Assembly: GCF_025398255.1 (NCBI RefSeq)
Contig: NZ_JAODNW010000002.1
Coordinates: 186,001-250,000 of the forward strand
Origin: Chelativorans intermedius
GTDB lineage: Bacteria > Pseudomonadota > Alphaproteobacteria > Rhizobiales > Rhizobiaceae
Direction: 5' to 3'
Length of the DNA stretch: 64,000 bases
The notes beneath the pieces were generated by a model. The model had not been told where the DNA came from. It did not search any database and saw nothing but the letters and a program-made list of their open reading frames with translations. Made by a program: the position numbers and the translations under genes. Position 1 is the stretch's first letter. Every line of letters begins with the position of its first letter. Shown piece after piece: positions 21,272-33,320 of this stretch.

Positions 21272-21310
21272 TCGGCGCGCTCCCGCCTGACGCGCGCCGA
21301 CTGTTTCTTC
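21272..21310. terminator. Bidirectional terminator between convergent genes
   Basis: TCGGCGCGC (21272-21280) and GCGCGCCGA (21292-21300) form a perfect 9-bp stem with an 11-base loop, followed on the plus strand by CTGTTTCTTC. It lies between the stop of the siderophore-binding gene (21266) and the end of the convergent hydrolase gene (21309), where a terminator is expected. Confidence 0.75.
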
Positions 21311-22859
21311 ACGCGCTGTCGGGCGTCCGGTTGCGCTGGCGCGCGACGACGCCCGTCTCGGTCAAAAGCAGGTTGGCGAGCGTCTGGTCCTCGGCGCGCA
21401 TTCGCCAGGAAAGAAGTCGCATGGCCTGGTCGCGGGCGAGCGGTGCATGGGCGGGCTCCAGCGCCAGGTTCCGCCATGGCGCGCCTTCCTCCATCGAGAG
21501 CAGGAGGGGAGGAAGCCCGGCGAAATGGACGTAGAGATGCGTCCCGTCAATGCTGGCGTTGAAAGAGCAGGCCTCCGACGGCAGGCCGAAAAACCGCTCC
21601 GGCCGGCCAAGCGCGATGTCGCGAAAGTCGATCGCGTAGTGCGCCGCATCGCGCCAGCCGTCCGGGCGGTGCCCCTCGATGAAGGCAAGGAGCGAGAAGC
21701 CGTCGCATTGCCCCGGCGCCGCCGCGCCCAGCCACGCAAGGATCGTCGGCATGATGTCGACGGCCTCGGTGAACGCGCTGACAACCTGCCCGCGCGTCGC
21801 ATCCGCCTCGCGGCGCGGATCGTGGATGATGAGCGGCAGGTGAAAGGCCTGCGGAAACACCGCCTCCTTGCCGAGCATGTAGTGGTCGCCGAGCAGCTCC
21901 CCATGATCGGAGGTGAAGATCACCAGGGTACGCTCCAGCGTGCCGGTCGCCCGGAGCTGAGCCAGGATGCGGCCCACATGATGGTCGATCTCGGCAACCA
22001 GCGCGGCATATGTGGCGCGGATCTGGCCGATCTGCGCACGGCTGAGGTTGGCCGGGTCGAGCGAGCGGCCGAACACCCAGTTCTCGCGTGTCTGGTTGGC
22101 AAGCCGCCAGGCAACCCAGGGATGGAGCGCTGCCGTCTCCTCGAGGCTTCCGCGGGTCTGGGGCGCCGGCATCTCGTCCGCCGCAAACATGTCGTGCCAG
22201 GGGAGGGGGGCAAGCCACGGCGGATGGGGGCGGATGTAGGAGAGATGCGCGAACCACCCATCGCCCTGCTCGCCCTGCCAGTCGAGAAAGCGGTCCGTCA
22301 GGTAGGCGGTGTCGCTGTCGCTGTCGCGATAGCGGGCAGGGCCCCACAGCTCGCCATCGTGGCGGGCGGCCTCGGGCGTGTAAAGGGCCCTCAGGCCCAC
22401 GGAGGTGTCGTAACCCTGGGCGCGCAGATGCGACAGCCAGGGTGCGGCATCCTCGAGCATCGGGCAGACGGGATCGAACCCGGGGAGGATGCCCTCATAG
22501 CTGCGCAGTGCCGGATCGTTCGGCGCCCGCCCGCGCGGATCGGGCGAGGTATCCGTGTAGCCGAAAAGGGCCGGAGCATAGCCCAGTGCGCGCGCCTCCA
22601 GCGCCAGATTGGTGAAGCGCGCATCGAGCGGGGTGCCGTTCTGCACCGAGCGGTGATTGTGGAGATACATGCCGGTGAGCAGGCAGGCGCGCGACGGCCC
22701 GCAGGGGCTCGCCTGCCCGTAGTGATTGGCAAATCGCACGCTCTGGCGCGCCAGCGCGTCGAGATGCGGCGTGTGCGCCTGGGAATTGCCGGCGCAGCCG
22801 AGAGCATCGGCCCGCATCTGGTCGGCGGTGATGAGCAGGACATTCCAAGACATCGTCAC
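21309..22859 (-). CDS. Phosphonate monoester hydrolase/sulfatase-like enzyme of the alkaline phosphatase superfamily
   Basis: This is a 516-residue protein from GTG 22859 (ATG at 22853 is an alternative). It has no signal peptide, so it is probably cytoplasmic. The sulfatase motif Cys53-Gly-Pro-Ser-Arg57 should be converted to formylglycine. Asp13, Thr102, His212, Asp318-His319 and Lys331 match the metal and substrate residues of the Rhizobium phosphonate monoester hydrolase, and stretches such as LTGMYLHNHRSVQNGTPLD and GYTDTSPDPRG resemble that enzyme more than arylsulfatases. It is the last gene of an importer operon in a 2-aminoethylphosphonate locus, which suggests it releases phosphonates from phosphonate monoesters. 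A true sulfatase or phosphodiesterase role remains possible, as these enzymes are promiscuous. Confidence 0.85.
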   Translation of the reverse strand: MTMSWNVLLITADQMRADALGCAGNSQAHTPHLDALARQSVRFANHYGQASPCGPSRACLLTGMYLHNHRSVQNGTPLDARFTNLALEARALGYAPALFGYTDTSPDPRGRAPNDPALRSYEGILPGFDPVCPMLEDAAPWLSHLRAQGYDTSVGLRALYTPEAARHDGELWGPARYRDSDSDTAYLTDRFLDWQGEQGDGWFAHLSYIRPHPPWLAPLPWHDMFAADEMPAPQTRGSLEETAALHPWVAWRLANQTRENWVFGRSLDPANLSRAQIGQIRATYAALVAEIDHHVGRILAQLRATGTLERTLVIFTSDHGELLGDHYMLGKEAVFPQAFHLPLIIHDPRREADATRGQVVSAFTEAVDIMPTILAWLGAAAPGQCDGFSLLAFIEGHRPDGWRDAAHYAIDFRDIALGRPERFFGLPSEACSFNASIDGTHLYVHFAGLPPLLLSMEEGAPWRNLALEPAHAPLARDQAMRLLSWRMRAEDQTLANLLLTETGVVARQRNRTPDSA

Positions 22860-22867
22860 GGGAACCT

Positions 22868-23689
22868 TCAGGCCGCGGCTTCGGCGGCGAGCGCGCGTCT
22901 GCGCACCTCCGCACGGCGCATGAGTTCATAGATGATGGCCCCCAGGATCGTCAGGGCGATCAGGATCACCGCGATGGCGTTGACAGCGGGCGTCAGGCCG
23001 AGCCGCACGCGGCTTGCGATGTTCAGCGTCATGGTGGTCTCTGTGCCGATGACGAAGAGGGTGGTGTTGTAGTTCTCGAAGCTCTGGAGAAAGGCCATGA
23101 GTGCCGCGGCAAGAAGCGCCGGCCGCAGGAAGGGCACCGTGATGCGCCAGAAGGTCCAGGTATGGCTGGCCCCGAGGTCGAGGGCCGCCTCTTCCAGCGT
23201 GCGGTCGAACCGCTGCAGGCGCGCCAGAATGAGAAGCATCGCGAAGGCGGCGATGAAGGTCGTCTGCGCCACGACGGCGAGCATGAGCCCGCCGCCGACG
23301 CCGAAATACTGCCGCCAGAAGATGAGCGTCGAAATGCCGATGATGACGCCCGGCGTAAGGATCGGCGACACCATGATTCCATAGATCAGCGTCCGCGCCC
23401 GGCTTTGGAGGTTGTAAAGCACGAGCGCGCCGGCAAGCCCGATGGGAACGGACAGCGCCACCACCCCAAGGCCGATCAGGATCGAGTTCCACACCGCACG
23501 GCCCATGAGCTGATCGGCGAAGAGCTCCTGGAACCAGCGCAGCGTGAACCCCTGCCAGGGCAGCATGGTCGGAAAGCGGCTGTCGTTGAAGGCCGCCGCC
23601 ATCATGAAGACGAGCGGCAGGAACAGATAGGCGAAGAACAGGACCAGATAGAGATAGATGAACGAGCGCAACAGGGAAGAGGACGTCAT
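22868..23689 (-). CDS. ABC transporter permease, PotC/PhnV-like (2-aminoethylphosphonate importer candidate)
   Basis: This 273-residue inner-membrane permease starts at the ATG at 23689, which overlaps the stop of the previous permease by 4 bases. It has about six membrane segments and the DLGASHTWTFWRITVPFLRP coupling loop. The order binding protein, ATPase, permease, permease matches spermidine/putrescine-type and phosphonate (PhnSTUV) importers. Proximity to phnW, phnA and phnY supports 2-aminoethylphosphonate as substrate. Polyamine-type alternatives cannot be excluded from the sequence. Confidence 0.92.
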   Translation of the reverse strand: MTSSSLLRSFIYLYLVLFFAYLFLPLVFMMAAAFNDSRFPTMLPWQGFTLRWFQELFADQLMGRAVWNSILIGLGVVALSVPIGLAGALVLYNLQSRARTLIYGIMVSPILTPGVIIGISTLIFWRQYFGVGGGLMLAVVAQTTFIAAFAMLLILARLQRFDRTLEEAALDLGASHTWTFWRITVPFLRPALLAAALMAFLQSFENYNTTLFVIGTETTMTLNIASRVRLGLTPAVNAIAVILIALTILGAIIYELMRRAEVRRRALAAEAAA

Positions 23690-24570
23690 TTCGCGATATC
23701 CTGCAGGCTGACGCGGAACAGGCGCATCATCACGAGGATGAAGACGATGCACAGGATGAGGAGGGCAAAGGCATAGGCCGCACCCTGGTTCCAGTCGCCG
23801 CCGTCGAAAAACCAGGAATAGATGACCTCGGTGAACCAGCGCGAGCGCGGCCCGCCAAGCAGGCGCGGCACCGCGATCGTGCCGGCCGAAAGCATGAAGG
23901 TCATGATGCAGCCGACGGCAATGCCCGGTTTGGCATGCGGAATGACGACACGCCAGTGAATGCGCCAGGTCGAGGCGCCCAGGTCACGGGCAGCCTCGAT
24001 CTGGTGGCGGTCGAGGCTCTCCATGGCGTTGTAGAGCGGAAACACCATGAACAGGATGTAGGCATAGACCATGCCGATCATGACGCCGATATTGCCGTCG
24101 ATGAACTGGATCGGGCGGTCGATCAGCCCCAGGCCAACCAGCGCACTGTTGAAGATTCCGTTGCGCGAAAGGATCAGGAACCAGGCGAAGGTGCGCAGGA
24201 TCTCGTTGACCCAGAAGGGCACGATGAGCGCCACGATCAGCAGTGCCGCCGCCTGCCCGCGCGCCACCTGCGCGAGGTGATAGGCAATGGGGTAGCAAAC
24301 CGCCAGCGCCAGAACGGTGACGAGCATCGACGACCAGATCGTCTTGAAGAAGATGCCGCGGTGAATCGTGTTGGCCCAAAGCGTGGCATAGTTCTTGAGC
24401 GTATAGACGTCCTCGGGCCCGCCGATCTTCGAGGGTGGCAGGGAAGGGCGGAAGGAGAAATCCACCATCATCACCTGCGGCAGCACGATCATGAAGGCCA
24501 CCCACAGAAGGGTGGTCAAAAGGGCCATCCAGGCGATGAGGGGGCCAGTGCGCCGGAAGAGCTCAGCCAT
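23686..24570 (-). CDS. ABC transporter permease, PotB/PhnU-like (2-aminoethylphosphonate importer candidate)
   Basis: This 294-residue inner-membrane permease has a first helix around residues 10-32 (LIAWMALLTTLLWVAFMIVL), a long periplasmic loop and then about five more helices. The coupling loop is AARDLGASTWRIHWRVVIPH. It is the partner of the PotC-like permease and overlaps the ATPase gene by 8 bases. The type is that of the spermidine/putrescine, Fe3+ and 2-aminoethylphosphonate importers; the surrounding phosphonate catabolic genes favour the last. Confidence 0.92.
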   Translation of the reverse strand: MAELFRRTGPLIAWMALLTTLLWVAFMIVLPQVMMVDFSFRPSLPPSKIGGPEDVYTLKNYATLWANTIHRGIFFKTIWSSMLVTVLALAVCYPIAYHLAQVARGQAAALLIVALIVPFWVNEILRTFAWFLILSRNGIFNSALVGLGLIDRPIQFIDGNIGVMIGMVYAYILFMVFPLYNAMESLDRHQIEAARDLGASTWRIHWRVVIPHAKPGIAVGCIMTFMLSAGTIAVPRLLGGPRSRWFTEVIYSWFFDGGDWNQGAAYAFALLILCIVFILVMMRLFRVSLQDIAK

Positions 24571-25657
24571 GGGCGGTCTGTCCCTGCGGCAGGATCATCG
24601 TGGCATCGGTATCGAAGCCGACGCGCAGCAAAGTTGCCGCCTGCAGCCTTGCCTGGGTCCGCCCGTCATTGGTCAGATGCAGTATGGTCTCGCGCTCGCC
24701 GGCGCCATCCAGCAACACATTGATGAAGGCGCCCTCGAAGTCGAAGCGCTGAGGCGCGCTTTCCAGCATGTTGTCGGCCGCCTCGCCCGCGTCCAGAACG
24801 CGCATCCGCTCAGGCCGGACAAGGGCAATGGCGGGCGTGCCGACCGGCAGCGCGTGAAGGTTGCGGCCGCGCATCGGCCCGACCGCCGTCTCGATCAGCG
24901 CCTCTTTTCCCTCGATCCGCGAGATGGTGCCGGGGAACAGGTTGCTCTCCCCCACGAAGGTGGCGACGAAGGCGTTTTGCGGCGCGTCGTAGATGTCGGC
25001 CGGCTGGCCGATCTGCAGCACCTCGCCCTGCGACATCACGCCGATGCGGTCGGACATGGTGAGCGCCTCGCCCTGGTCGTGCGTGATGTAGATGAAGGTC
25101 ACGCCCGTCTTGCGCTGGATGGCGCGCAGTTCGGAGCGCATGTGCTGACGCAGCTTGAGGTCGAGCGCCGACAGCGGCTCGTCGAGCAGCAGCACCGCCG
25201 GCTCGACGGCAAGCGCGCGGGCAATCGCCACCCGCTGGCGCTGGCCGCCGGAAAGCTCGGAAACCGCCTTGTCCGCATAGCCGGGCAGGGCGATGAGATC
25301 GAGCAGCTCCTCGGCGCGCCGCCGCCGCTGCGCCTTGCCGACACCGCGCGCCTCGAGCCCGAAGGCGATGTTCTCCCACACCTTCATGAGCGGGAAGAGC
25401 GCCAGATTCTGGAAGATCAGCGCCGTCGGGCGCCTGTTGGGGCCAATGCCCCGCATGTCCTTGCTGCCGATCCGCACAGCCCCTTCCGTGGGCTCCATAA
25501 AGCCGGAAATCAGGCGCAGGATGGTTGTCTTGCCACAGCCGGAAGGGCCGAGAAAACTGAAGAACTCCCCCGCCCCGATCTTGAGGCTTACATTGCGCAC
25601 GGCGACGAAATCGCCGAAACGCATGGTTACGTTGTCGAGTTCGACGCTCTGGCCCAT
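24563..25657 (-). CDS. ABC transporter ATP-binding protein, PotA/PhnT-like (2-aminoethylphosphonate importer candidate)
   Basis: This 364-residue cytoplasmic ATPase has Walker A GPSGCGKT (about 38-45), signature LSGGQRQR (about 134-141), Walker B VLLLDEPLSALD and switch motif YITHDQGEA. A C-terminal TOBE-type domain follows, with VRPERMRVL. Domain layout and length match PotA and PhnT. It is encoded between the binding-protein gene and the two permease genes, all on the minus strand. It energises import of what is, from context, most likely 2-aminoethylphosphonate or a related phosphonate. Confidence 0.93.
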   Translation of the reverse strand: MGQSVELDNVTMRFGDFVAVRNVSLKIGAGEFFSFLGPSGCGKTTILRLISGFMEPTEGAVRIGSKDMRGIGPNRRPTALIFQNLALFPLMKVWENIAFGLEARGVGKAQRRRRAEELLDLIALPGYADKAVSELSGGQRQRVAIARALAVEPAVLLLDEPLSALDLKLRQHMRSELRAIQRKTGVTFIYITHDQGEALTMSDRIGVMSQGEVLQIGQPADIYDAPQNAFVATFVGESNLFPGTISRIEGKEALIETAVGPMRGRNLHALPVGTPAIALVRPERMRVLDAGEAADNMLESAPQRFDFEGAFINVLLDGAGERETILHLTNDGRTQARLQAATLLRVGFDTDATMILPQGQTAHG

Positions 25658-25726
25658 CCCGTTCCCCTCTCCAGGATTTGGCGGCTCCCGGCGCAGGTGC
25701 CCCGGGAGCCAATTTAGCAGCCAGGC

Positions 25727-26896
25727 TTATCCCGCCAAGAGGCGGTCGCGGAATTCGTTGCGCGCGGCCACGAACCAGGCCGGCTCCGGCGGATACCACC
25801 ACAGCTCCTCGATGGCGTTGCCCGGATAGGCAGCGGCGAAGTTGGCCGCATAGTCCTCGCCCGCAAGCGGTGCCGCACCCTCGGTGCACGAATTGTAGCC
25901 CGACAGGCGCACATGAATGGCCGCGTTCTCGGGCGTGTAGTACCAGTTCAGGAACTCATAGGCCTGGTCGATGTTGCGCGCGCCCTTCGGGATGGCCATG
26001 CTGTCCATCCAGGTGAGCGCGCCTTCCTTCGGCGCCAGATAGGTGATGCGCCCGCCGCTTTCGGTGCGCATGCGCATGGCCGGGCCGTCCCAGGTCTGGC
26101 CGATGACGGCATTGTTCAGCATGAACGCCGCCTCCGTCTCCTGGGCGTTCGACCAGAACTGCACGATCGCGTTCTTGCGCTCGAGCGCGAATTGCAGGCA
26201 GCGCTCGTAGATCTCGCGCATCGCCGTCTCGTCGGTGTAGGTGACGCGCATCTTGTCGGAATCGATCTCGCCGATCGAGTCGAGATAGAGGCCGATCCCG
26301 AGCAGCGAGGAGTGGGCCCGCACCGTGGCGCGGTCGTCCTCCGCCCACACGTCGCCATAGCCAAGCTTGCCGTGCACGGCCTCGATCACCGAGGTGTCGA
26401 TGCACAGACCCTCGGTGCCCCAATTGAAGGGAGAGGCAAAACGCTCGCCGTTGCGCACGCCACCCAGCTCGCCGGAGCTCGCCCACATCGAGGGGATGAC
26501 GCCCGCCACATTGATGCGGCTTTCATCCATGGGCTGCAGCAGCTCCTGCTCGAGCCATACCGGAACATAGGTGATCGAGGGCATCACGATGTCGAACCCT
26601 TCGCCGCCCGAGGCGCGCAGACGGTTCAGAACCTCGTCGTTGGAGCCGTAGGTCGACAGGTTGAGCTTGATCCCGGTCTTCGCCTCGAAGCTTTCGATCA
26701 TCTCCGGATAGACATAGTCCGACCAGGTGAACAGGTTCAGCTCGCCGGAGCTCTGGCCGAAGGCCGGACCGCCGATGAACGGCGCCCCCAGCGTCAGCGC
26801 ACCCGCCGCGCCGGCGCTCTTGAGCAGCGTGCGCCGGTTGAAGGCGCGGGCCGCACCCGCCGTCTGCACGGCATAGTTCTTTGCAGGCTTCTTCAT
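25727..26896 (-). CDS. ABC transporter substrate-binding protein, PotD-like, with twin-arginine signal (2-aminoethylphosphonate candidate)
   Basis: This is a 389-residue periplasmic binding protein starting at the ATG at 26896, preceded by GGGAGTGG. The N-terminus has a twin-arginine motif NRRTLLKSA (20-28) before a hydrophobic segment and cleavage near AFGQ (residue 47), which suggests Tat export. The mature part begins LNLFTWSDYVYPEMIESFEA, the pattern of PotD/PotF-type proteins. It heads the importer operon that ends with the phosphonate-monoester-hydrolase-like gene. The ligand is inferred from the phnW-phnA-phnY genes directly upstream; a polyamine is the alternative. Confidence 0.9.
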   Translation of the reverse strand: MKKPAKNYAVQTAGAARAFNRRTLLKSAGAAGALTLGAPFIGGPAFGQSSGELNLFTWSDYVYPEMIESFEAKTGIKLNLSTYGSNDEVLNRLRASGGEGFDIVMPSITYVPVWLEQELLQPMDESRINVAGVIPSMWASSGELGGVRNGERFASPFNWGTEGLCIDTSVIEAVHGKLGYGDVWAEDDRATVRAHSSLLGIGLYLDSIGEIDSDKMRVTYTDETAMREIYERCLQFALERKNAIVQFWSNAQETEAAFMLNNAVIGQTWDGPAMRMRTESGGRITYLAPKEGALTWMDSMAIPKGARNIDQAYEFLNWYYTPENAAIHVRLSGYNSCTEGAAPLAGEDYAANFAAAYPGNAIEELWWYPPEPAWFVAARNEFRDRLLAG

Positions 26897-27354
26897 GATT
26901 TCCACTCCCGGTTTGCGGACCGCAGAAGAAGACGGCACGCCCTTCAGGCCGCCATCGATATCTCCAATCTTCCCGATCCAGTCTCGTCCATCGGATATCG
27001 TCAAATCAGTTCATCGAGTTCCGTGCCTTCGCCTCCTTCCGCGCTGTTCCCCTTTTCTCACTCAACCACACGTCCCGGGAAGACCCGCTTTCGGCGCATC
27101 GCCGGTCTTCGTTCGGGACCGCTGGTTTTCCAGGCTGCGGGAACGATGATGCCCAACTCTCGGCGTGCCTCAATTTGACCATTTGTGTTACATTTTTTTG
27201 AAGCCTGCGCCCGATCCCGCAAGAATCCCCGCCGGAATGACGAGCGCCGGAGGGCATCGCCGCGAATTCTGTGCCTGGCGCTCTCATTTGTAAATTCATC
27301 CTTCCCGGTCGTTCTCCGGCCGCCTGTCATGCGTCACGCTGCCGTGGCGGGCGG
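26897..27354. other. Noncoding region upstream of the importer operon
   Basis: The 458 bases between phnY and the binding-protein gene hold no credible gene. They contain ATCGATATC (26954-26962) and GGATATCG (26994-27001), which share ATCGATAT with the palindrome in the phnW-LysR promoter region, and a large hairpin at the phnY end. Promoters for the importer operon are expected here but none could be assigned with confidence. Confidence 0.6.
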
Positions 27355-27374
27355 CTATGCCGGCCACGGCAGCG
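27337..27374 (-). terminator. Strong hairpin spanning the phnY stop codon
   Basis: CGCTGCCGTGGC (27337-27348) and GCCACGGCAGCG (27363-27374) are perfect 12-base arms with a 14-base loop that contains the phnY stop codon. No T-tract follows on the minus strand, so termination may be incomplete; an mRNA-stabilising role at the end of the phnWAY message is an alternative. Confidence 0.6.
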
Positions 27375-28806
27375 AGTAGGTCCTGACATTGGTATATCCC
27401 TTCATCGCCTCCTTCACGCCTTCCTTGTAGCCCAGCCCCGAATCCTTGATGCCGCCGAAGGGGGACATCTCGATCCGGTAGCCCGGCACCTCCCAGACAT
27501 TGACCGTGCCGACCTCCAGCCCCTCGACGAAACGGGTTATCCAGTCGAGCCTGTCGGTGCACAGGCCCGCCGACAGCCCGTAGGCCGTCGCGTTGGATAT
27601 CTGAATGACCGTGTCGATGTCGTTCGGGCAGCGGATGATCGGAATGACGGGACCGAACGTCTCCTCGCGCACCAGCTCGCAGTCATGGGGAACGCGGTCG
27701 ACCACGGTCGGCGGATAGAGGGCGCCCTGGCGGGTGTTGCCATGGAGCAGAACGGCGCCCTTCTCCACCGCGTCGTTGACCCGCGCCTCGAACAGGCGGG
27801 CCGAACGCGCGTTGATGACCGTGCCGACATCGGTTTCGGGATCCATGGGATCGCCGCAGCGCAACGCCCGGGCGCGGGCCAGGATCTTCTCCGACAGGGC
27901 ATCGGCGATGGGCTCGACGGCGAGGATGCGCTTGACCGCCGTGCAGCGCTGCCCGGAGTTTCTGGTGGCGCCGCTCACCGCCAGATCGGCGGCCCGGTCG
28001 AGATCGGCATCGGCCAGCACGATCAGAGGATCGTTGCCGCCAAGTTCAAGCACCAGGCGCTTGTAGCCGGCGGTTGCCGCGATGTGCTTGCCGACCCTCA
28101 CCGAGCCGGTGAAGGTGACAAGATCGGCATCCGGATCGGTGATCATGGCATCGCCCATGGTGGCGGGATTGCCGGTGACCACCGACAGCATCTCGGGGGG
28201 CAGGCCCGCCTCATAGAGAATGTCCGCCAGAAGAAGGGCCGTCAGCGGCGTAAGCTCGGTGGGTTTGAGCACCACACGGTTGTTGGTGGCCACCGCGGGC
28301 GCGATCTTGTGGGCCACCATGTTGAGCGGGTGGTTGAACGGCGTGATCGCCGAAATGACGCCCAGAAGCGGCGTGCGCATCGTGTAGATGCGCCGTGGCT
28401 TGCCCTGCGGAGTGATGTCGCAGGAAAAGATCTCGCCGTCGTCCTGGATGACAAGCTGTCCGGCCAGCGAGAAGACATCGCAGGCGCGCCCCACCTCATA
28501 GAGCGAATCCTTTAGGCAAAGGCCGGATTCGGCGGTAATCAGCCGGGCGATCTCGTCGCGGCGGGCGGCAAGCTGCTCGGCAACACCCGTCAGGATCCGC
28601 TGGCGCTCATGGCGCGTGAGCCTTGCCCGAAAGGCGCGGGCCCTCCAGAACGCATCGCGCACATGCTCGGGCCGGGCGGCGGGCACGCTCCCGATCACCT
28701 CGCCGCTATAGGGATTGACGACCTCGATCGTCTCGTCGGTGCCGACCGCGCGCCCGGCGATCCGCATCTTCTCTTCGCGAAAGGCTGTCTTCACCGAAAC
28801 GTCCAT
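27355..28806 (-). CDS. phnY: Phosphonoacetaldehyde dehydrogenase
   Basis: This 483-residue cytoplasmic NAD-dependent aldehyde dehydrogenase oxidises phosphonoacetaldehyde to phosphonoacetate. It has catalytic Cys288 in [12 protein letters not shown], general base Glu254 in LVLELGGND, and Arg107 and His159 (ITPFNHP) at positions corresponding to substrate-binding residues of Sinorhizobium PhnY. The Rossmann segment FTGSVRVGK is at about 232-240. Length is normal for the superfamily. The specific assignment rests on these residues together with adjacent phnA and phnW, which make and consume its substrate and product. It lies 42 bases after phnA in the same operon. Confidence 0.93.
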
Positions 28807-28848
28807 CTCTTCATCGTCCCTGCTCGATGTCGTTGACCGGCTGTGCGC

Positions 28849-30108
28849 TCAGTGTGCGGCGGCAGCCCTCGTCGCAACGTGAAAGGCATCGAAGTTGCGC
28901 AGCTGCGGCGCTTGGGGAAGATCCTCCATCGACCTGTTGACGATGAACGGAACCTCCTGCTCGCCGAGCCCGCCATGGGAGCGCAGGGGCTCCTTCAGGG
29001 CCGACAGATCATGACGGTCGGCGCTGGTGCCGATCACCTTGTTCTCATCCGACAGGAGCACGATGTCGCCGATGCGGTCGGCGGGCAGCTCGAAGCGCCG
29101 GCAGGCCTCGTCGCGCCCGAGCACCAGCTCCATGCCGTCGATCGCGCTGAGACGGGCCATGATCGCGCCGATATCCGCGTTCTTCGGCAGATAGGCGGTG
29201 GCAAAGGACCCGAGCGCGCCATGATGGACCACATACGGGTCGGTGATCGGCAGGATCACGCGCGCCGCGCCCGGACCAAGCCAGCGGTCGAGCAGTTCCT
29301 GCACATAGATGACATCCGGGCTTCCGTCCGGCCGGTGCTTGGGCTTCATGCCATGGTCGGCGGTGATGACGACGACAGCGCCGGCAGCATCGAACTCGGC
29401 CAGATAGCGGTCGAACATCGCGTAGAAGGCGTTCGCCTCTGGCTCGCCGGGGGCGAACTTGTGCTGGATGTAGTCTGTCGTGGTCAGATACATCACGTCC
29501 GGCCGGAAATCGCGCAGAAGCTTCAATCCGGCCGCGAAGACGAACTCGCTGAGGGCCGCCGAATACACATCAGGCACCCGCCGGCCGAGCCAGTAGGCGG
29601 CGTTGTCGATGCCGTGTTCGGCTGCCGTCGTGGTGTCGGCCTTCTCCGACGAGAAGCACATGGCGCGGCCCTCGCCGAAGGTCAGCCCGTGGCCGAGAAG
29701 GGCGCGCAACTTGTCCTTGGCGGTGACCACGGCAACACGGGCGCCGGCGGCGTGGAAGCCGGCGAATATGGTGGGCGCGCGAAGGAAACGCGGATCGTTC
29801 ATCATGACCTCCGCGTCGCGCTCGGGCTCATAGAGATAGTTGCCGCAGATCCCGTGGATGGCGGGCGGCCGCCCGGTGGCGATGGACAGGTTGTTCGGAT
29901 TGGTGAAGCTCGGAATGGCGCTGTGGGCGGTGCGCGTGGTGCCCTTGCGCATCACCCCCTGAAGCGTCGGCATCAGGTCCGCAGCCATGGCGGTCTCGAG
30001 ATAGGCAGGTTCGCAGCCGTCGAGGCAGAAGACGACGGCAGGGCGCACAGGCCAGGGATATTCCCTGTCGTTGACGATGATCGCTCGGGGAGCGTTTCCT
30101 GAGGTCAT
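28849..30108 (-). CDS. phnA: Phosphonoacetate hydrolase
   Basis: This is a 419-residue zinc-dependent enzyme of the alkaline phosphatase superfamily that hydrolyses phosphonoacetate to acetate and phosphate. It starts at the ATG at 30108, preceded by GGAGAAAGG; an upstream extension was rejected because it overlaps phnW and has no family pattern. Asp30 (FCLDGCEP) and the nucleophile Thr69 (IPSFTNPNNLSIATG) match Asp29 and Thr68 of Sinorhizobium PhnA. ITADHGMKPKH provides another metal-site Asp-His pair, and HGGLGEQEVPFI the C-terminal His. It lies 31 bases after phnW and 42 bases before phnY, and completes the route from 2-aminoethylphosphonate to phosphate. Confidence 0.94.
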   Translation of the reverse strand: MTSGNAPRAIIVNDREYPWPVRPAVVFCLDGCEPAYLETAMAADLMPTLQGVMRKGTTRTAHSAIPSFTNPNNLSIATGRPPAIHGICGNYLYEPERDAEVMMNDPRFLRAPTIFAGFHAAGARVAVVTAKDKLRALLGHGLTFGEGRAMCFSSEKADTTTAAEHGIDNAAYWLGRRVPDVYSAALSEFVFAAGLKLLRDFRPDVMYLTTTDYIQHKFAPGEPEANAFYAMFDRYLAEFDAAGAVVVITADHGMKPKHRPDGSPDVIYVQELLDRWLGPGAARVILPITDPYVVHHGALGSFATAYLPKNADIGAIMARLSAIDGMELVLGRDEACRRFELPADRIGDIVLLSDENKVIGTSADRHDLSALKEPLRSHGGLGEQEVPFIVNRSMEDLPQAPQLRNFDAFHVATRAAAAH

Positions 30109-30139
30109 GGGGTCCTTTCTCCGTGGTTGGCCGGACCAC

Positions 30140-31339
30140 TCAGGCAGCCAGCCGGGCCTTTTCCTCCAGCGCCGAGGCGGGGGGTGCCGCGCTCGCAACG
30201 CCCATCTCCTCGAGGCTCTCCCCGACTGCCTTGACGACCCGGCGCATGACCGAAGCATCAAGGCGACCGATGCAGCCGATGCGGAAGGAATCGACCACGG
30301 TCAGCTTGCCGGGATAGATGATGAAACCTTTCCCCTTCATCAGATCGTAAAAGTGTTGGAAGGCGAAGCGGGGATCGGCGGGATTGAAGAATGTGACGAT
30401 GATCGGCGACAGCCAGCGATCGGCAAGAAGCGTCTCGAAGCCGAGCGCGCGCATGCCTTCGACCAGCGTGTCGCGGTTTTCGACGTAGCGGGCAAGACGG
30501 CCGCTCACGCCGCCCTCGGCGCGGTGCTGGCCGAGCGCCTCGAGGAAGGCCGCCACCACATGGGTGGGCGGGGTGAAGCGCCACTGGCCCGTCTCCTCCA
30601 TGTAGGCCCACTGCGCATGGAGATCGAGGCTCAGGGAATGGCTGCGCCCCCGGGCGGCGCGCAGCGCCTCCTTGCGGGCGATGACAAAGCCAAAGCCCGG
30701 CACGCCCTCGATGCACTTGTTGGCCGAGGAGACGACCGCCTCGAAGGGCACCTTGGCCGCATCCAGCGGGATGGCGCCAAGCGCGCTCATGGAATCGATC
30801 AGCAGCTTGCGCCCTCGGGCGTGAACCACCGCGGCGATTTCCTCGACAGGGTTGAGGATGCCGGAGCTCGTCTCGCAATGGACGACGATCACATGCCCGA
30901 TGTCCGGGTCCTCGTCGAGGGCGCGCGCCACCTCCTCAGCCCGCGGCGGCAGATAGTCGCCCTTGTCGATCAGCCGGTAGGAGCGGCCAAGATAGTCCAG
31001 CGTTCGCGCGATGCGCTGGCCATAGGCTCCATTGGCAAGAACCAGGGACCGCCCATCGCGGGGGATGAAACTTCCCAGCATCGCCTCGACGACGAAGGTG
31101 CCGCTGCCCTGCATCGGCACGCAATCGAACTCCTCGACAGTGCCGGAAGAACAGACGAGCTCGAGCAGCTGGCGGCGCAGCGTTGCGGTCATGGCCCGGA
31201 AATCCCCATCCCAGGAGCCCCAGTCGCGCAACATGGCGGCCTTGACCCTCGGCGAGGTCGTCAGCGGCCCGGGGGTGAGCAGATAGGGTTCGCTGCCCGG
31301 CGGATCGACAATGTCCGCACACGAGGATCCGTTTGCCAT
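30140..31339 (-). CDS. phnW: 2-aminoethylphosphonate:pyruvate transaminase
   Basis: This is a 399-residue PLP enzyme (class V aminotransferase) that converts 2-aminoethylphosphonate and pyruvate to phosphonoacetaldehyde and L-alanine. The ATG at 31339 gives [15 protein letters not shown] and then [10 protein letters not shown] (20-29), the typical PhnW start; a longer open frame upstream crosses the promoter. The Schiff-base lysine is Lys208 in [15 protein letters not shown], with Asp182 (LIDSMSALG) contacting the pyridine nitrogen, and [11 protein letters not shown] contacting phosphate. The C-terminal tail of about 20 residues is alanine-rich. It is the first gene of the leftward phnW-phnA-phnY operon and is divergent from the LysR regulator. 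Confidence 0.95.
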
Positions 31340-31387
31340 GCGCCGCTCCCGCTCGCAGTGTTTTCCGGTCGACTCTACGGCGCCTGA

Positions 31388-31412
31388 TTTCATTTGAAAA
31401 ATCGATATTTCA
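31388..31412. promoter_or_regulatory. Palindromic operator candidate for the LysR regulator
   Basis: TGAAAAATCGATATTTCA (31395-31412) is an 18-bp palindrome with 16 symmetric positions around ATCGAT, and TTTCATTTGAAA (31388-31399) overlaps it. It lies midway between the divergent phnW and LysR starts, where LysR proteins bind. GATAAT at 31413-31418 could be the -10 element for the regulator gene. Confidence 0.65.
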
Positions 31413-31458
31413 GATAATAGAATAGGGCAAGGTGATAGTTCCTGCGGAGGGTTCCGCC

Positions 31459-32349
31459 TTGCGCTACGTCCAGCTTCGAGCCTTTCATCATGTCGCGGTG
31501 TGCGGAGGCTTCTCAAAGGCGGCCGGGGCGCTGGGCCTGTCGCAGCCGGCGATCTCCGACCAGGTTCGGCGGCTCGAGGAGGATTACGACGTCATCCTCT
31601 TCAACCGCCAGCGCCGGCAGGTCACGCTGACCGAGATCGGCCGGCAATTGCTGGAGGTCACGAGGCGCCTCTTCGCAACAGAAGGGCAGGCCTTCGAAAT
31701 CCTCTCGCAGTCCCAGACGCTGCGCGGCAGCACATTGCGCGTGGTCGCCGATTCCGCCTTCCACGTGCTGCACGCGCTCGCCCGCTTTCGCGCTGCATTT
31801 CCCGGCGTGGGCATCACCGTGCATGTGGGCAACACCGAACAGGTGATGAACCGCCTCTACGACTTTCAGGCCGATGTCGGTGTGCTGGGCGAGATGCCCG
31901 ACAGCCAGGACTTCAAGACGCTTCTGCTCAGTTCGGAGCCGATCGTCGCTTTCGTCTCGCGCGACGATGCGCTTGCCGCCCGCAGCACCGTGACGCTTGC
32001 CGAGCTTTGCACGCAGCCGCTGGTGCTGCGCGAAAAGGGGTCGAAGACACGCTACAAATTCGAGGCCGAAGCCGCCGCCCGCGGCCTCAAGCCGCAGATC
32101 GCAATCGAAGCGGAGGGACGGGAAGCGGTCCGAGAGATCGTCGCCACCGGAATCGGGGTCGGCGTCGTCTCGGCCGCCGAATTCGGCCAGGATCCCCGCC
32201 TGGTGGCCATCCCCATCGCCGACTGCGACATGCGCATGGACGAAGCCCTGATCTGCCTGCGCGAGCGGGCCCAGTCGAGGCTCATCAGCGCCTTCTTCTC
32301 GGTCGCCGATACGGCATCGCAGCCGGCAGGCGACCTGGCGGCGGGCTGA
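31459..32349 (+). CDS. LysR family regulator of the phosphonate genes (PhnR-like)
   Basis: This is a 296-residue LysR-type regulator from the TTG at 31459, chosen because GGAGGG lies 7 bases upstream and the product then starts [14 protein letters not shown], the normal LysR N-terminus. A GTG at 31432 would add nine residues. The winged helix-turn-helix covers about residues 1-60 ([25 protein letters not shown]), followed by a two-lobed effector domain. It is divergent from phnW with a palindrome between, so control of the phnWAY genes, and perhaps the importer operon, in response to 2-aminoethylphosphonate is likely. The effector is an inference. Confidence 0.92.
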
Positions 32350-32381
32350 GGTGCTTGCAGATCGTCGAGGATCCGGCTTTT

Positions 32382-33320
32382 TCACCCGGAAAAGGAGACA
32401 GGCTCCAGCGGCTTTCTGTTCACGCTCAGCGAAAAGATGTCGGGCCGGGCATAGTGGCCGCAGACATCGAGCGAGCGCCGTGCGCGCCGCGCCAGTTCGA
32501 CGTCGAGCTCGGCGTAGAGAATTCCCTTTTCGCGATGGAGCGGCCCGGCGGCGATGCTGCCTGTCGGCGTCACCACCACCGCATCGCCGTCGTTGAGCCA
32601 CTCTTCCGCCTTGAAGAGCCGGTCACGCTCCGGAAAGTCGCCTGGAATGTCGCTGCCCTGCAGGGCCGTGGCGGTGCCGATCACCCACGTGCCACCCTCC
32701 TTGGCGATGTGCCGCAAAGTGGCAAGGCAGGTTTCCCCATTGTCCCATGTCGGATTGACGAAAATCTCCATGCCCTGGGCATAGAGCGCATAGCGCGCCA
32801 GCGGCATGTAGCTTTCCCAGCAGATCAGACAGCCAAGCCGCCCGGCCGGCGTCTCGACCACCTTGAGGCCGGTTGCATCGCCCATGCCCCAGACCATGCG
32901 TTCCGGGTTGGTCGGCATGAGCTTGCGGTGGCGGTTGAGCAGGGTTCCCTCGGGGCCGATGACCACGACGGTGTTGAACAGCGTGGTGCCGGAGAATTGG
33001 CTGTCGATCTCATGAAGCCCGATCACGATGGTCGCACCGTGCCTGGCGGCCGCCTCCTGGATGGGCTCGAGGTCGTTCCCGCCAAGATCGACCGCATTCT
33101 GGCGCAGCCTGGCGTGAATTTCGCTTGAAAGCGCCATGTCGCCCCCGGGCCTCAAGCGCCAGATCCAGGTTGGATAACCGGGAATATAGGCTTCCGGGAA
33201 TATGAGCAGGCTTGCTCCCGCGCGCACCGCTTCTTCAACCGATGCCAGCACGGCTTCGATCGTCTTGCCCCGGTCGAGCAGGACCGGCGGCTTTTGAATC
33301 ACGGCAATCTTCGTCGACAT
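32382..33320 (-). CDS. Nitrilase (carbon-nitrogen hydrolase family)
   Basis: This is a 312-residue enzyme starting at the ATG at 33320, preceded by GGAAGGGAGGAGAACC. The catalytic triad of the nitrilase branch is visible: Glu43 (FPEAYIPGYP), Lys133 (HRKLMPTNPERMVWG) and Cys167 (LICWESYMPL). The CWES/MPLARY pattern is that of true nitrilases, which hydrolyse nitriles to carboxylic acids and ammonia, rather than amidases. It converges on the LysR gene with 32 bases between stops. Its own promoter region carries a perfect 16-bp palindrome. A link to phosphonate metabolism is suggested only by position. The natural substrate is unknown. Confidence 0.9.
   Translation of the reverse strand: MSTKIAVIQKPPVLLDRGKTIEAVLASVEEAVRAGASLLIFPEAYIPGYPTWIWRLRPGGDMALSSEIHARLRQNAVDLGGNDLEPIQEAAARHGATIVIGLHEIDSQFSGTTLFNTVVVIGPEGTLLNRHRKLMPTNPERMVWGMGDATGLKVVETPAGRLGCLICWESYMPLARYALYAQGMEIFVNPTWDNGETCLATLRHIAKEGGTWVIGTATALQGSDIPGDFPERDRLFKAEEWLNDGDAVVVTPTGSIAAGPLHREKGILYAELDVELARRARRSLDVCGHYARPDIFSLSVNRKPLEPVSFSG

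Follow-up and report, generated by a model that had tools for sequence, protein, structure and literature searches.

Phosphonate monoester hydrolases (PMHs) serve as models for the study of catalytic promiscuity, and to our knowledge no natural substrate of these enzymes has been established. PehA of Burkholderia caryophylli and RlPMH of Rhizobium (pRL90232) are the closest described examples, and the pRL9 gene has a Dpp-type importer alongside and no phnWAY genes in the stretch examined. The primary activities of RlPMH are the hydrolysis of phosphodiesters and of phosphonate monoesters (PMC5488252). The second related system is the phnWAY cluster for 2-aminoethylphosphonate, which comprises phnW, phnA, phnY, and phn_lysR and is accompanied by the AepXVW/PhnS2T2U2 importer (PMC8316502). 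This study analyzed a stretch of 64,000 nucleotides from Chelativorans intermedius (contig NZ_JAODNW010000002.1, positions 186,001 to 250,000; hereafter the window) in which a phnWAY cluster with its LysR gene is followed by a PotABCD-type importer and a PMH homologue, with no PhnS2 or PhnU2 gene adjoining. We propose, with a probability of roughly 0.58, that this block serves the breakdown of esterified aminophosphonates: an ester would be imported and cut by the PMH, and the phosphonate released would be degraded by PhnWAY.

The minus strand carries, in reading order, phnW (31339-30140), phnA (30108-28849), phnY (28806-27355), a 458-bp gap, potD, potA, potB, potC, and the hydrolase gene. The features of the locus are as follows.

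21309-22859, minus strand: PMH homologue of the D-PMH type with the CGPSR formylglycine motif, last gene of the potDABC-pmh run
22868-23752, minus strand: PotC-type permease, with a likely alternative start at 23689
23686-24570, minus strand: PotB-type permease
24563-25657, minus strand: PotA-type ATPase
25727-26896, minus strand: PotD-type solute-binding protein; its N-terminus (RRTLLK) looks by eye like the twin-arginine type
26897-27354, no strand: 458-bp gap between phnY and potD, with promoter-like hexamers at 27294-27266 on the minus strand
27355-28806, minus strand: phnY, phosphonoacetaldehyde dehydrogenase (TIGR03250, 780.9 bits; cut-off 635.65)
28849-30108, minus strand: phnA, phosphonoacetate hydrolase (TIGR02335, 533; cut-off 407.55)
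30140-31339, minus strand: phnW, 2-aminoethylphosphonate:pyruvate aminotransferase (TIGR02326, 482.6; cut-off 400.8; and NF010006, 561.1; cut-off 296)
31393-31409, minus strand: predicted phn LysR operator AATATCGATTTTTCAAA (24.7 bits on a model whose sites exclude the window)
31432-32349, plus strand: phn_lysR-type regulator, divergent from phnW (TIGR03339 phn_lysR, 357.9; cut-off 341.1)

PhnW, PhnA, PhnY, and the LysR protein thus all exceed the NCBIfam cut-offs for the 2-aminoethylphosphonate pathway within one cluster, the PhnA and PhnW profile scans having used longer open frames, and the identities that a first-pass annotation had read from the letters alone are upheld for all four genes. 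The same annotation had described a PotD-type importer ending in a CxPSR hydrolase; the potDABC order and the hydrolase start 8 bp after the end of potC agree with that description. The intergenic gaps within phnWAY measure 31 and 42 bp, and potA shares 8 bp with potB. With 458 bp separating potD from phnY, a point absent from the first-pass annotation, the locus may form two transcription units.

We then compared the hydrolase with characterized relatives. Among solved structures it matches 4uph (441.6 bits), RlPMH 2vqr (405.3), and 2w8s (391.5) best, and it is approximately 42% identical to the pRL9 protein. On the PehA equivalog NF045661 the hydrolase scores 508.1 bits against a cut-off of 900 and is therefore a relative rather than a member of the narrow PehA group; the PMHs of two other loci, L153 (578.6) and L129 (590.3), also fall under this cut-off. 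An alignment of 65 sequences, the hydrolase included, revealed a complete active site (DQ, CGPSR, N, H, DH, and K), and the active site and the formylglycine motif are shared with PehA and RlPMH. The metal, nucleophile, and other residues examined are all conserved, as the first-pass annotation had claimed. Active-site positions follow the RlPMH numbering. The hydrolase carries Tyr at the Y105 site and Asp at the T107 site (Y-T-D), and thus has Asp instead of the Thr that stands beside the nucleophile in RlPMH. PMHs possess Tyr together with Asp or Thr at these two sites, whereas arylsulfatases possess Lys and His (PMC5488252). Four weaker homologues from other species of the genus (L034-L037) carry K-T-H and form a separate tree branch. 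On the strength of the Tyr/Asp pair we rejected an arylsulfatase, and the active site, judged from its residues, is of the PMH type. The nearest relative in the tree is the PMH of L153 (genome G606), a sister at 56% identity with support of 100/98, and both genes lie beside potD. No signal peptide was seen by eye on the hydrolase, so the substrate would need to be imported as a whole molecule. A gene for a formylglycine-generating enzyme is present elsewhere in the genome (PF03781, 249.1 bits; contig C45:10276-11100), and a short sulfatase-like match lies approximately 1.7 kb from it (C45:12779-12988).

According to the proposed route, PotDABC would import a small molecule that contains 2-aminoethylphosphonate as the monoester of an alcohol, for instance a sugar ester or the glyceryl ester that remains once a phosphonolipid has lost its acyl chains. 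Cys53 of the PMH would be converted to formylglycine, and the cytoplasmic enzyme would cleave the P-O-C bond to yield the alcohol and free 2-aminoethylphosphonate. PhnW would then remove the amino group, PhnY would oxidize the phosphonoacetaldehyde, and PhnA would split phosphonoacetate into acetate and phosphate, with phnWAY controlled by the divergent LysR protein. The sequence itself shows which genes are present and in what order, the active-site residues, an operator-like site ahead of phnW, and, in some relatives, PMH recurring with phosphonate genes and importers; we infer the substrate, the specificity of uptake, the joint induction of importer and PMH, and the existence of a single shared route.

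To evaluate whether PMH genes lie near phnA elsewhere, we examined 104 phnA-bearing genomes other than that of the window, 69 of which have a PMH match. A PMH gene shares a contig with phnA at a distance of no more than 15 kb in 3 of 46 family genomes (G102, G197, and G149) and 2 of 43 phnA-bearing class genomes (G440 and G380), and in none of 15 further phylum genomes. These five pairs compare with 0.64 expected (P 5e-4), an estimate that assumes uniform gene placement, counts more distant PMH matches, and ignores kinship and contig breaks, with the 15-kb width picked after the distances had been seen; at narrower widths the counts are 2 versus 0.21 (5 kb, P 0.02) and 4 versus 0.43 (10 kb, P 0.001). 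In the class sample, again without the window genome, PMH occurs in 36 of 43 phnA-bearing and 63 of 341 phnA-lacking genomes (Fisher P 2e-17), or in 29 and 31 of them, respectively, when matches are restricted to E below 1e-100; these counts are uncorrected for genome size and kinship, which limits what they can say for the route.

We further assembled 97 distinct PMH loci (1.83 Mb, copies removed, many broken at contig ends), a set deliberately enriched for phnA-bearing genomes, and found a sought phosphonate gene within 12 kb in 10 of them. The clusters of L105 (G197), L131 (G149), and L100 (G102) each contain an Opp/Dpp-type importer. Five further loci place PMH near pbfA, phnW, or a phn_DUF6-like gene. 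L142 (G089) comprises a Ugp-type importer, pmh, a 2-hydroxyacid dehydrogenase gene, pbfA, and phn_lysR, the last two above their cut-offs; the dehydrogenase belongs to the Pfam family of PbfF (PMC12366243). In L204 (G564), pbfA adjoins pmh. L199 (G259) carries a phn_lysR-like gene, phnW, a Na/Pi transporter gene, phnS2, a T2-like gene, U2, a GST-like gene, and then pmh, and in L134 (G164), on a 5.6-kb contig, pmh is next to a phn_DUF6-like gene. L213 (G589) has a glycerate 2-kinase gene and pmh on one strand and, on the other, genes for a DeoR-type regulator and a Na/Pi transporter followed by a phn_DUF6-like gene that directly precedes potDABC. In a tree of 64 PMHs, the eight phn-linked members require at least six changes across well supported branches, and the phn label is not more clustered than shuffled labels (131 of 500 shuffles as low). 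This pattern, read from the tree, fits repeated linkage and also fits no inheritance of the linkage.

Several observations concern genes beside pmh in these loci. In L213 (3540-6427), pmh overlaps at its end with the glycerate 2-kinase gene, and the DeoR-type regulator gene lies alongside, a hint that the PMH might release a glycerol-type alcohol. This glycerol lead is thin, comprising that overlap and a PMH near glpD and glpK in L124; probes for glycerate 2-kinase and glpD detected neither gene near any other PMH locus. A MetE-like gene (cobalamin-independent methionine synthase type) directly precedes pmh in two family genomes (L135 8729-9778 and L134 2811-3929). Na/Pi cotransporter genes lie within 8 kb of pmh in L013, L196, L105, L199, and L213 and possibly serve the export of surplus phosphate.

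Importer genes also recur beside PMH. ATP-binding cassette (ABC) permease genes of the Dpp, Ugp, and Pot types occur within 6 kb of PMH in 33 of the 97 loci, and they are densest at 2-6 kb (10.1 and 7.3 hits in each 100 kb) and sparser both closer than 2 kb (2.6) and at 6-10 kb (4.0 and 2.0). PotD is matched in 45 of 385 class genomes, the window genome included. Its start lies within 3 kb of that of PMH in three class genomes (G423, G606, and G294; 0.08 expected), and in L213 the starts are within 6 kb, with 4.0 kb between the genes that include the Na/Pi transporter and phn_DUF6-like genes. On a plasmid of Aliiroseovarius crassostreae, pmh is divergent from potDABC, and seven further plasmid records of this species contain PMH and PotD matches near each other. 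In all, pmh adjoins potD in four other lineages and lies 4 kb off in a fifth; no PotC was found at the L153 locus.

We conducted a motif search in 39 distinct upstream stretches of family lysR-phn pairs plus that of the window. The motif found before the phn genes was AATA(A/T)CGATTTTACATA. A model of 28 distinct sites, all of them from outside the window, was then scored, and its best match in the window, 24.7 bits at 31393, falls between lysR and phnW at the predicted operator. The 97 PMH loci contain six sites of at least 22 bits: three at phn cluster promoters (L105, L100, and L142, the L100 site itself being part of the model), one unexplained (L019), and two by PMH. Of the latter, the 22.0-bit site of L131 (21.9 without that genome's other site) lies approximately 300 bp behind pmh and before an importer binding-protein gene, and the 23.1-bit site of L135 precedes a run of the MetE-like gene, pmh, and a Dpp-type importer, with phnA on another contig. 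The unexplained site, a 23.6-bit match in a Kiloniella locus (L019), is located at position 600, 9.4 kb from pmh, and no sought phosphonate gene was found in that locus.

Because PMH recurs together with several kinds of phosphonate gene and of importer, we prefer the proposed route over a chance neighbourhood. A number of findings weigh against it. The combination of phnWAY, potDABC, and pmh was found in no other genome examined. The window genome is the only one of 16 in the genus to carry phnW (E up to 1e-40) and the only one with a PMH match above 37% identity. The family has phnA in 47 of 247 genomes, the window genome included; 48 phnA loci were retrieved from the other 46, and their retrieved stretches contain no PotD of the window type. 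In most of the genomes the hydrolase gene is not conserved beside phnWAY, an outcome that the first-pass annotation had named as refuting its proposal: in 43 of those 46, no PMH was found on the phnA contig at a distance of up to 15 kb. None of the 29 PMH loci from the first search has phnA or phnW in the stretch examined, which spans up to 10 kb per side, and 87 of the 97 distinct loci contain no sought phosphonate gene within 12 kb. The phn_DUF6-like proteins score 143-151 against a model cut-off of 288, and the LysR proteins of L105, L130, and L199 remain under the phn_lysR cut-off. The best motif match before potD is weak (9.3 bits at 27287, minus strand), 23 of 400 shuffled versions of the gap score as high, and we did not take it as proof that the LysR protein controls potDABC. 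The match ranking just below the six sites of at least 22 bits (L212, 21.2 bits) falls within a potD gene and is probably a chance match, indicating that single motif hits can arise by chance. The first-pass annotation had combined import, ester cleavage, and PhnWAY into one pathway and had suggested a search for conserved PMH-phnWAY-importer neighbourhoods; the recurrence of PMH near phosphonate genes and importers supports this proposal in part, but the full block was found in no other genome examined and most PMH loci lack the phosphonate genes sought.

The alternative that survives best is that PotDABC-PMH constitutes a separate phosphodiester module, for instance for glycerophosphoethanolamine or glycerophosphocholine, with a cytoplasmic cut of the diester and an incidental phnWAY neighbourhood. 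PMHs cleave phosphodiesters too, this being one of the two primary activities of RlPMH (PMC5488252), and the potD-pmh loci L152, L153, L170, and L212 contain no phosphonate gene in the stretch examined, both of which also count against the proposed route. The same applies to the 458-bp gap, which separates potDABC-pmh from phnY and leaves room for separate control, and the glpD and glpK genes near one PMH (L124) would suit such a module. However, PMH lies near phosphonate genes more frequently than estimated and does so with three importer types, in L131 and L135 the genes of PMH-importer groups have phn LysR operator matches ahead of them, and the phn_DUF6-like gene of L213 directly precedes potDABC. 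We consider the phosphodiester module unlikely.

The ligand of the importer was further examined through its proteins. PotA (323.1; cut-off 482), PotB (184.5; 348), PotC (152.9; 326), and PotD (99; 582) all score below the polyamine equivalogs. On the PhnS2T2U2 models, the PhnT2 score of 341.8 is under 457.7 and the PhnU2 score of 59.4 is under 593.25, and no PhnS2 match up to E 0.001 was found beside phnWAY. Because the listed matches to the polyamine and aminoethylphosphonate transporter models are all below cut-off, these models do not fix the ligand. PotD retains the polyamine-pocket motifs WSDY and WMDS, which we take to bind the amine; most pocket motifs are common to PMH-linked and unlinked PotDs, and the ligand is consequently not settled by them. 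The closest importers (PotD 73% and 64% identical, L150 and L151) have no adjoining PMH, a further point against the route, and their scanned neighbours yielded no ligand clue. PotDABC might instead import free 2-aminoethylphosphonate in place of AepXVW/PhnS2T2U2, with the PMH having no weight in the route. The lack of a PhnS2-type gene adjoining phnWAY and the retained pocket motifs are compatible with this reading, whereas the position of pmh 8 bp behind potC, and beside potD in other lineages, makes it improbable.

A very improbable reading is that the hydrolase acts as a sulfatase on some sulfate ester and has no connection with phosphonates. It has the Pfam Sulfatase domain, and 4uph, the solved chain closest to it, bears the name sulfuric ester hydrolase, but its Tyr and Asp are those of PMHs and the Lys/His homologues L034-L037 branch separately.

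The proposed role of PMH has a precedent for marine bacteria. Sosa et al. (2017) postulated that PMH (termed PEH) frees phosphonates from marine polysaccharide esters in Sulfitobacter with C-P lyase; in its accessible text, that proposal is based on genome presence, not on clusters, importers, or a regulator (PMC5649143). The words "sulfatase" and "monoester" are absent from the main text of three papers on enzymes of aminoethylphosphonate clusters (PMC8154272, PMC10590968, and PMC12366243) and of a review (PMC10574752). In the accessible text, "monoester" appears once in PMC8316502, in another sense, and the mentions in PMC4744853 (in its reference list) and PMC5870055 are unrelated to such clusters. 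No paper linking PMH with phnWAY was found in the literature searched, most subscription journals being outside its scope. The ancillary enzymes PbfA and PbfF are optional and thought to feed extra compounds into the aminoethylphosphonate pathway; PMH, which stands beside pbfA in L142 and L204, would differ from them in releasing a phosphonate from an ester.

Phosphonates are constituents of lipids and glycans (PMC8316502), and a de-esterifying entry step ahead of PhnWAY would, if true, provide one bacterial way to this pool. We tentatively suggest, as possible rather than probable, that alphaproteobacterial PMHs have, as a main natural job, the intracellular release of aminophosphonates from esters that the cell has taken up. 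PMH would then have joined phosphonate pathways several times, with Pot, Opp/Dpp, and Ugp importers and, in some lineages, under phn LysR control, and glycerol-type esters would be the first candidates. The phosphonate genes, importers, and phn LysR motif that recur with PMH indicate which class of substrate and which regulator to test, and they offer several genomes in which to do so.

Other parts of the window were also inspected. A nitrilase-type gene (32382-33320; nearest solved chain named NIT4, 200 bits) lies beside the LysR gene and was rejected as a member of the route, having no match in the retrieved stretches of the 48 family phnA loci. Amino-sugar type genes and a sugar importer at 8.4-17.4 kb showed no tie to phosphonates. 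Between 40000 and 48000, the G+C content is 44-51% in three of four 2-kb bins and 72.5% in the other, compared with approximately 65% for the window; the genes there resemble the sulfotransferase or glycosyltransferase type by eye, and this low-G+C stretch may have been acquired. At 2-2624, S-Me-THD (DUF917) and hydantoinase/oxoprolinase genes lie beside what resembles, by eye, a peptide-type ABC importer, and the S-Me-THD and hydantoinase/oxoprolinase kinds also occur near pmh in a Roseibium PMH locus (L128).

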